The notes under the pieces are model-generated. The model saw nothing but the letters and a program-made list of their open reading frames with translations. It had not been told where the DNA came from and did not search any database. From Halogeometricum pallidum JCM 14848 (GTDB taxonomy: Archaea > Halobacteriota > Halobacteria > Halobacteriales > Haloferacaceae): a stretch of DNA of 34,116 bases. Below, piece after piece: positions 16,996 through 18,900 of this stretch; the stretch's first letter is position 1, and every line of letters starts with the position of its first letter. The stretch covers positions 9,360 to 43,475 of the forward strand of contig NZ_AOIV01000043.1 of the NCBI RefSeq assembly GCF_000337095.1. Direction: 5' to 3'. A program made the position numbers and the translations under genes.

Positions 16996-18081
16996 CTATC
17001 GAACCGGGATGTCGACGCCGCCGCGTCCGTCGCCTCCGTCGCGTTCGCCGCGGCGGCGTTTGCGGCGCCGACCGCGACGTTGCTTGCTCTCGACGGGCGG
17101 GCGTTCGTCGAGGACGACGGTGAGCGTCTCGGGCGACCCCTCGCGTATCACCTCGATGTCGACGGGTTCGTCGGGGCGCGTCTCCGTGATGAGATAGCGC
17201 ATCAGTTCCTCGTGCGAGCGGACCTCTCCGTCGCCGATGCCCACGACCACGTCGCCGCCGATGGGGACGCGTTGCCCGCGGACGGTGCGCCTGTCGCGGC
17301 ACCCGCGGAGGGCGTCGCCGTCGCGCGGTCCCTCCGTCACCTCCACGACGAGGACGCCGCGCGGGTCGTCCAGACCGTTCGCCTCGGCGACGGCGGGGGT
17401 CACGTCGAGCATCCGCGCCCGGAGGTACGAGTGCGGGTAGCGCCCGGCGGAGACGAGACTGGGGACGATGCGGTTCACGATGGTCGGCGAGACGGCGAAG
17501 CCGATGTTGTCGCCCTGCTTCGCGCGGTTGACGCCGACCACCTCGTATCGCTGGGAGGGCGCCCCGTCGTCGTCCGCCTCGTCCCCGTCGACGTACACCG
17601 CCACGAGGGGGCCGCCGGAGTTCCCCGGGTTGATGGGCGCGTCGGTCTGCACCACGTCCGGGATGGAGAACCCGCCGGAGGTGGGCATCGACCGGTTCGC
17701 GCCGGAGACGATGCCGGCGGTGATGGAGCCGTCGAGTCCGAGGGGGTTGCCGAGGGCGGCGACGGGGCGACCCGGCAGGGGGTTCTCGGGAGCGACGGGC
17801 AGCGGTGTCGCCGATTCGGGAAGTCCATCGACGGCGACGACGGCTAAGTCCGTGTAAGCGTCCGTGCCGACGACTTCGCCGACGGCCCACGACCCGTCGG
17901 CGAAGCGGAGTTCTACCTCCTCGACGTTCCCGACGACGTGTTCGTTCGTCACGACGTGGCGGTCGTCGTAGACGAACCCCGACCCGGCGCCGACGCCGGG
18001 GGCGCGGCGCCCGACGTACAGGGAGACGACGGACGGAATCACGTCGCGGTACAACTGCTCGAAGTCTTCGTCTGCGTGCAT
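16996..18081 (-). CDS. HtrA/DegP-type serine protease with PDZ domain, no signal peptide
   Basis: This 361-residue trypsin-fold S1C protease has an intact triad: His48 in TNEHVV, Asp78 in YTDLAVV and Ser155 in NPGNSGGP. It also has GSGFVYDDRHVVTN and the activation-loop region around GLDGSITAGIVSG. A PDZ domain follows at about 218-325. No signal peptide or membrane helix is visible, as the N-terminus is MHADEDFEQLYRD. It is therefore predicted to be cytoplasmic, unlike most HtrA proteins. The last 30 residues include an unusual Arg/Lys cluster (RRGRRRKRRRGER) in an otherwise acidic protein. Likely role: protein quality control. It is divergent from the KDPG aldolase gene. Confidence 0.88.
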   Translation of the reverse strand: MHADEDFEQLYRDVIPSVVSLYVGRRAPGVGAGSGFVYDDRHVVTNEHVVGNVEEVELRFADGSWAVGEVVGTDAYTDLAVVAVDGLPESATPLPVAPENPLPGRPVAALGNPLGLDGSITAGIVSGANRSMPTSGGFSIPDVVQTDAPINPGNSGGPLVAVYVDGDEADDDGAPSQRYEVVGVNRAKQGDNIGFAVSPTIVNRIVPSLVSAGRYPHSYLRARMLDVTPAVAEANGLDDPRGVLVVEVTEGPRDGDALRGCRDRRTVRGQRVPIGGDVVVGIGDGEVRSHEELMRYLITETRPDEPVDIEVIREGSPETLTVVLDERPPVESKQRRGRRRKRRRGERDGGDGRGGVDIPVR

Positions 18082-18129
18082 GGTGCGCGGCCCGAGGGGT
18101 CGCTAACCCGAGGTAAGCGTCGAGCGTAT

Positions 18130-18163
18130 TTGACCGTGCCGCATGGTGTCACGGCACGGACAA
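18130..18163. promoter_or_regulatory. 34-bp near-perfect palindrome between divergent genes
   Basis: TTGACCGTGCCG (18130-18141) and CGGCACGGACAA (18152-18163) are inverted copies matching at 11 of 12 positions around a 10-nt spacer. It lies between the divergent HtrA-type and KDPG-aldolase promoters, about 45 bp upstream of the aldolase TATA-like box. Dimeric regulator binding is the likely role. The sequence does not fit the TACT-N-GAGTA type site known for TrmB-like sugar regulators. Confidence 0.55.
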
Positions 18164-18206
18164 GCCGGGGAGCGGGGACGACACCGCCGTCGACGCCGTC
18201 TCGGGT

Positions 18207-18214
18207 GTTTATTA
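18207..18214 (+). promoter_or_regulatory. TATA-like box of the KDPG aldolase gene
   Basis: GTTTATTA is centred about 30 nt before the ATG at 18241, indicating a leaderless transcript and fixing the start in a longer open frame. Confidence 0.6.
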
Positions 18215-18240
18215 GGCGCCGCGGCGGAGTCGGAGACGAA

Positions 18241-18900
18241 ATGGTCGCGCTCGACTCATCCGAGGACATGAACCGACTGGCCGAGAGCGGCGTCGTCGCG
18301 GTGATGCGCGGCGCCGACGCGGACACTATCATCGACGTGGCGCAGGCGCTCAACGACGGCGGCGTCACGGCCTACGAGATAACGGCGGACCACCCCGACG
18401 CGATGGACCTCATCGCCGAGGTGTCGGCCTCCTTCACGGAGGAGGAGGCCATCGTCGGCGCGGGGACGGTGCTCGACGGCGAGACGGCCCGCGCCGCCAT
18501 CATGAACGGCGCGGAGTTCGTCGTCGGCCCGAACTTCGACCGGGACGTCGTCGAGACCTGTAACAGGTACGGCACCCTCGTCGCGCCGGGCATCCTCACG
18601 CCGACGGAGGCGGTGAACGCCTACGAAGCGGGCGCGGACATGGTGAAAGTGTTCCCGGCGTCGGTGATGGGACCGGACCACCTCTCCAGTCTCAAGGGAC
18701 CGCTACCGCAGATTCCGCTGATGCCGACGGGCGGCATCGACATCGACAACGTCGCCGACTACATCCGGGCCGGCGCCGTCGTCGTCGGCGCGGGCAGCGC
18801 CATCATGGACGGCGACGCCATCTCGGCGGGCGACTTCGACGCCATCACCGAGACGGCCCGCGAGTTCACGCGGGTCATCGAGGACGCGCGCGAGTCGTAA
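18241..18900 (+). CDS. 2-keto-3-deoxy-6-phosphogluconate (KDPG) aldolase
   Basis: This 219-residue class I aldolase is of the bacterial Eda type. The catalytic Glu46 lies in AYEIT and the Schiff-base Lys136 in DMVKVFPAS; GAGTVLD and PTGGI form the phosphate site. It cleaves KDPG (or KDPGal) to pyruvate and glyceraldehyde 3-phosphate in the semi-phosphorylative Entner-Doudoroff pathway that haloarchaea use for sugars. KHG aldolase activity is an alternative within the family. A palindrome and a TATA-like box precede it; the gene converges on the carbonic anhydrase gene with an 18-bp gap. Confidence 0.9.
   Translation: MVALDSSEDMNRLAESGVVAVMRGADADTIIDVAQALNDGGVTAYEITADHPDAMDLIAEVSASFTEEEAIVGAGTVLDGETARAAIMNGAEFVVGPNFDRDVVETCNRYGTLVAPGILTPTEAVNAYEAGADMVKVFPASVMGPDHLSSLKGPLPQIPLMPTGGIDIDNVADYIRAGAVVVGAGSAIMDGDAISAGDFDAITETAREFTRVIEDARES

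Follow-up and report, generated by a model that had tools for sequence, protein, structure and literature searches.

Which element between the divergent protease and KDPG aldolase genes of Halogeometricum pallidum may act as an operator, and which of the two genes would it serve? The window, i.e., the whole stretch of 34,116 nt analysed here, carries on the minus strand a gene for a 361-aa HtrA/Do-like serine protease (Trypsin_2 and PDZ_2; 16996–18081, ATG at 18081) and on the plus strand a gene for a 219-aa KDPG/KHG aldolase (18241–18900, ATG at 18241), separated by an intergenic region of 159 bp (18082–18240). An earlier note had placed an operator between these genes, identified it with a 34-bp palindrome, and suggested that it controls the aldolase. 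The genes are indeed divergent, and the palindrome, TTGACCGTGCCG-N10-CGGCACGGACAA at 18130–18163 (no strand assigned), is present as described, with 12-bp arms pairing at 11 of 12 positions (one mismatch) and a 10-nt spacer; it overlaps the TATA region of the protease promoter and a dyad at 18137–18151. The suggestion of an operator holds in part: an operator-like element does lie between the genes, but it is located at 18103–18117, not in the arms of the 34-bp repeat, and the gene it belongs to is the protease.

This element, CTAACC-CGA-GGTAAG (CTTACC-TCG-GGTTAG on the minus strand; the dyad itself is unstranded), lies approximately 20 bases from the reported palindrome, just downstream of the protease TATA box, where the protease transcript is expected to start. 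The TATA-like element, TCAAATA on the minus strand (18127–18133), was assigned by sequence only; in 35 aligned protease promoters an A/T-rich block is seen at approximately –23 to –18 from the dyad centre. The dyad retains 15, 15, 12 and 14 of its 15 letters in four congeners, and the altered copies still match TWACY-N3-RGTWA, while 0.04 matches to the 17-mer dyad pattern with one mismatch are expected in the window. A scan of symmetry axes, genus-weighted over 40 promoters, gives this axis 4.9 of 6 pairs (the set comprised the 35 promoters with the core plus one Haloarculaceae locus and four from Haladaptatus; a fifth Haladaptatus locus was dropped as a second copy from a genome that was already represented).

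Fifty protease promoters from 30 loci and 20 stretches were compared, nearly all of them belonging to best matches of at least 56% identity (one has 50%); the set excludes second copies in G047, G026 and G062, a partial match in G112 and matches of lower identity. The exact core of the dyad is present in 31 promoters and the relaxed core in 35, at the same place, compared to 0.03% of shuffles for the exact core. All protease promoters of 15 Haloferax, five Halogeometricum and five Haloprofundus have the exact core (genera are numbered below, with names assigned by inference: g1, Halogeometricum; g28, Haloferax; g27, Salinigranum; g11, Haloprofundus; g7, Halobium). Even the relaxed core is absent from 15 of the 50 promoters (g17, g25, g6, g5, g10, g3 and g14). 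Moreover, 23 named loci were retrieved with the protease, some of them from the same genomes, and 22 have the relaxed core, including five from Haladaptatus and one from a Haloarculaceae genome outside the family set, the sole exception being a distant relative in Methanohalarchaeum.

The dyad follows the protease when the two genes part. Seven genomes (five of g11 and one each of g7 and g21) carry the protease and the aldolase on separate contigs or at least approximately 10 kb from each other, and all seven retain the exact core upstream of the protease. Among 30 aldolase upstream regions, the core is found in 20, all of them in g1 and g28, in which the two genes are neighbours, and it is absent from all ten regions with no adjoining protease match (g6, g8). 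The conserved elements between the genes thus stay with the protease and not with the aldolase. As for the proposed sugar-acid or glycolytic control of the aldolase, none of the results points to it, and a dyad kept at separated proteases and missing from lone aldolases speaks against aldolase or sugar control.

The same dyad is shared by other promoters. We read 70 promoters of the operon encoding a small DUF7127 protein and Cdc48, and 30 upstream regions of a candidate regulator gene, out of 148 genomes of the family. The dyad lies between the TATA box and the DUF7127 start codon in 65 of the 70 genomes; of the first 50 promoters, 47 match the exact core (0.4% in shuffles) and 39 are exactly CTAAC-N5-GTTAG. 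Relative to the dyad centre, the TATA block of this set spans –24 to –17 and that of the protease set approximately –23 to –18. All five Halogeometricum genomes have the dyad, with varying central letters, after the TATA box of a tfb promoter, with 24 nt from the TATA start to the dyad centre in each. The tfb, cdc48 and protease promoters hence share the placement expected for a Phr/HSR1-type site, downstream of TATA and over what would be the start site, and the expected hsp20/cdc48 targets are represented by the DUF7127-cdc48 promoter. The C-terminus of DUF7127 has an alpha-crystallin-like NGVLTITV-K stretch, and it may be a small heat-shock protein, with an HSP20 score of only E 0.029, under the cut-off. 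Separately, conserved TGTGAACCGCAATTCAACCG-like and GCGATT-like blocks are observed upstream of TATA in most promoters of this set (L093–L143), approximately 40 to 100 bases upstream of DUF7127.

Another core site of the same genome falls across the start of an ArsR-type gene, G000:C10:54137-54811. Sequence, profile and structure comparisons agree that its product is an ArsR-type winged-helix protein related to Phr: its best solved relative is Phr (PDB 2p4w; 6.6e-22 for the single sequence and 6.5e-24 for the profile), which is also ranked first by Foldseek (with a low TM-score of 0.35, E 4.4e-8) with a regulator model of moderate quality (mean pLDDT 72, pTM 0.49). The regulator is the top match of the NCBIfam Phr model in all five Halogeometricum genomes (5e-26 to 9e-25, the next match being 2.5e-5), a model that at E <= 0.001 also has matches in 12 of the 14 control genomes, bacterial ones among them. 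We call it Phr-related and not Phr, because it scores approximately 94 (93.9) bits, below the NF053602 cut-off of 320 bits, which is exceeded in none of the five genomes. A further winged helix (Pfam HTH_Cmi2_C) is found at the C-terminus of the protein. SurR carries a redox CxxC motif, which is absent from the conserved columns of the candidate regulator. In fold and length, the C-terminal part included, SurR (PF0095, PDB 2qlz/2quf) resembles the candidate (1.7e-7, profile positions 8–204; Foldseek ranks 3 and 4), but its match in the DNA-binding part is much weaker than that of Phr.

The dyad is found at the regulator's own start in seven of the 30 loci (six exact, one relaxed; five of g1 and two of g8) and in none of the 23 regulator loci of g28, g27, g23, g7 and g4, 15 Haloferax loci among them; one of the 30 regions (L181) is probably not the true upstream region. 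As the site occurs in g1 and g8 only, autoregulation through it would not be general.

The dyad may be compared with the sites of known archaeal heat-shock repressors. The operator of HSR1 (AF1298) from Archaeoglobus fulgidus is reported to be CTAAC-N5-GTTAG (PMC9133787), the very sequence found in most of the cdc48 promoters, where a small stress-type protein is likewise encoded in an operon with Cdc48 and the regulator is of the ArsR type. The site in the window, CTTAC-N5-GTTAG or CTAAC-N5-GTAAG, is one letter off this motif in either reading, as are the protease sites of Haloferax. Unlike in the HSR1 system, the haloarchaeal regulator gene lies outside the cdc48 operon, and an HtrA/Do-like protease and tfb are among the carriers of the dyad; the comparison covers operator, operon and regulator type. 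Sites of Phr lie over the start site and contain TGGTAA (PMC9133787). The dyad resembles those of Phr of Pyrococcus furiosus in its place over the expected start site and in its RGTWA half-site, which is similar to TGGTAA, whereas the candidate regulator differs from Phr in its second C-terminal winged helix and in falling far below the NCBIfam Phr cut-off. Both Phr and HSR1 are assigned to arCOG01684, tied to Hsp20 and Cdc48, in a proteome paper (PMC5852551).

Haloarchaeal heat shock has been described differently. Transcription from the hsp5 heat-shock promoter is described as TFB/BRE-directed, with only TATA and BRE needed (Lu 2008, in PMC9133787); our promoters would share with it the setting of heat-shock transcription in haloarchaea and the involvement of a TFB, but the protease, cdc48 and tfb promoters have a conserved dyad downstream of TATA. 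In heat-shocked Halobacterium, cdc48b is up 5.6-fold and tfbG 2.4-fold, tfbG being also up in cold (PMC1971269); we set these heat-raised genes beside the dyad-carrying cdc48 and tfb without assuming orthology. CsmR of Haloferax has a different motif, TATCA-N4-TGATA (PMC13286277). A 2022 review states that the heat-shock repressor site of other archaea was not found in salt-loving ones. Within the accessible literature, including parts of PMC9133787, PMC5852551, PMC1971269, PMC13286277 and PMC8143581, we found no haloarchaeal Phr/HSR1-type operator; subscription papers mostly fall outside this search, and an earlier description is possible.

Based on these sequence comparisons, we consider 18103–18117, and not the 34-bp repeat, to be a likely operator of the protease for a repressor of the Phr/HSR1 type. 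An ArsR-type repressor that acts as a dimer and is a relative of Phr and HSR1, probably the product of G000:C10:54137-54811, would bind this dyad over the protease start site and keep RNA polymerase off the promoter under normal conditions. Heat or protein damage would release the repressor, and the cell would then produce the HtrA/Do-like protease alongside Cdc48 and the small DUF7127 protein, with a TFB as a further product in Halogeometricum. More tentatively, and with some doubt, this may be extended to a haloarchaeal proteostasis regulon (cdc48 and the protease; in Halogeometricum also the repressor itself and a TFB) whose repressor is related to Phr/HSR1 and has an additional winged helix at the C-terminus. 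Release of the repressor would in that case switch on a stress TFB and so connect two models, that of a repressor in other Euryarchaeota and that of TFB-directed control proposed for haloarchaea. A dyad common to cdc48, the protease and tfb, along with a candidate repressor, makes the idea of a haloarchaeal heat-shock operator testable, and this protease promoter is also present in 15 of 15 genomes examined of Haloferax, for which genetic tools are available.

Just upstream of the protease BRE/TATA we observe a second, weaker conserved dyad, TGCCGC-ATG-GTGTCA (18137–18151, unstranded), which might be a real second site, for an activator or a second repressor, the 34-bp repeat being then the same dyad taken in a wrong register. 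We hold this to be quite possible, if slightly on the doubtful side. Over the same 40 promoters, the offset –34 from the operator centre, corresponding to this dyad, is the second-best symmetry axis (2.85 of 6 pairs, with 2.71 at –35), compared to 1.92 at the axis of the reported repeat (–36.5), 2.5 bp away. Its counterparts are TGTCAC-N3-GCGACA in Haloferax, with five of six pairs in eight of 15 loci, and, as the best case, TGTCAC-N3-GTGACA in Haladaptatus, with all six pairs in one locus; moreover, four congeners keep 16, 16, 13 and 13 of the 17 letters at 18136–18152. On the other hand, the symmetry at –34 is weak or absent in g11, g21, part of g19, g23 and g27 (zero to three pairs, small shifts being possible), and part of the conservation may be that of BRE.

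Whether or not a second site exists, the operator-like dyad at 18103–18117 might be bound by some other factor, or be a core-promoter element of the start site, with the Phr-like regulator unrelated to it; we consider this unlikely. In favour of this alternative, the genome of the window has no excess of the core, with nine sites against nine for a reversed control, so the number of sites in this genome alone is uninformative. The excess appears when genomes are pooled: five Halogeometricum genomes have 59 core sites to 35 control sites, and four of Haloferax have 44 to 22. Four of the nine sites are the promoter sites of interest, those of the protease, DUF7127-cdc48, tfb and the regulator. 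The remaining five comprise two that are conserved across the genus at another position, an intragenic one, and two lacking a clear promoter context. The two conserved ones, both with TAACC-N3-GGTTA and each present in four of five Halogeometricum genomes, overlap the TATA box before an HTH-CBS gene (L146, L241–L243) or lie between a cystathionine synthase and a HEAT-repeat gene (L149, L238–L240); these conserved sites are placed, relative to TATA, unlike the heat-shock-type ones, which counts for the alternative. Against it stand the symmetry of the dyad with its free central letters, and the agreement of 39 out of the first 50 cdc48 promoters with the HSR1 motif quoted above.

The co-occurrence of the regulator and the dyad bears on the same alternative. 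Some match to the regulator is found in 147 of the 148 genomes of the family, the one without being 56% complete; the matches are weak in five g24 genomes (3.7e-5 to 7.6e-5) and in one genome that is 82% complete (3.5e-6). A strong match (E <= 4.2e-49) is seen in 63 of the 70 genomes sampled, and every one of these 63 has the cdc48 dyad. Out of the remaining seven, five are those of g24, which account for all five sampled cdc48 promoters without the dyad, and two are the incomplete genomes (56% and 82%), which have the dyad without a good regulator match and in this respect favour another factor. The joint absence in g24 is what a regulator-site pair would produce, but, as a single genus is concerned, it counts as one event. 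The g24 cdc48 promoters (L142, L246–L249) have, at the place of the dyad, CTATTCATGTAATAG in two cases and variants of it in three, letters of the CTATT-N5-ARYAG kind, and, given that a good match to the Phr-like regulator is missing there, these letters may possibly reflect a regulator switch.

The 34-bp repeat itself appears ordinary. It had been described as one of the strongest in the window, which does not hold: we counted 15 comparable placements (12-bp arms, at most one mismatch, spacer 3–20), whereas 200 dinucleotide shuffles gave 11.5 on average (sd 5.1), and inverted repeats of this kind are common at the 70% GC of the window. It does not appear among the 25 inverted-repeat pairs listed out of 26 for the window. 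A stronger one lies within the protease gene at 17874–17905, with 12-bp arms that pair perfectly around an 8-nt spacer, and is probably a chance product of GC-rich coding sequence.

Conservation, which the earlier note itself named as a refuting criterion, does not bear out the arms of the 34-bp repeat. In the four congeners the left arm has 12, 12, 8 and 8 of 12 letters in common with the window, the spacer 9, 9, 9 and 7 of 10, and the right arm (18152–18163) only 6, 6, 9 and 6 of 12; the spacer is thus kept better than the right arm, the opposite of what is expected for an operator in this register. Any such repeat is present in four of the 50 protease promoters, and at this place only in that of the window, the other 49 having no counterpart. 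That the palindrome is an operator serving the aldolase is hence most improbable: its position between divergent promoters and its rarity in shuffles of the 159-bp region alone (1.3% of 2000) favour it, but the right arm is poorly kept, only one species' promoter among 50 has the repeat at this place, and the arm pattern occurs once in the whole 4.38-Mb genome. The repeat looks like a one-species coincidence, best read as a part of the 18137–18151 dyad combined with letters of the TATA region and a poorly conserved right arm. As RNA, it folds on the minus strand (z –3.35; plus strand, –1.66); it is not expected in the protease mRNA, as the protease TATA is located downstream of it on that strand. 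A terminator or hairpin role was also considered and set aside, with no terminator-like site found.

On the aldolase side, we observe a conserved TATA-like element, TTTATTAG, at 18208–18215 on the plus strand, with 8, 8, 8 and 7 of its 8 letters kept in the four congeners. The earlier note was right that the region is not of the TrmB type: neither TACT nor AGTA occurs within 18082–18240, and a TrmB site in these 159 bp is rejected. TACTATCTGTAGTA, a sequence absent at the aldolase of the window, or its near variants directly follow the aldolase TATA in many Haloferax (g28) loci (L017–L022 and others), recalling the TrmB-type TACT...AGTA dyad. The aldolase upstream region of L034 (G011, g8) contains CTTACGTCAGGGAAGG...CATATGTACTTGTCACGCG, similar to a decayed protease promoter, though no close protease adjoins it.
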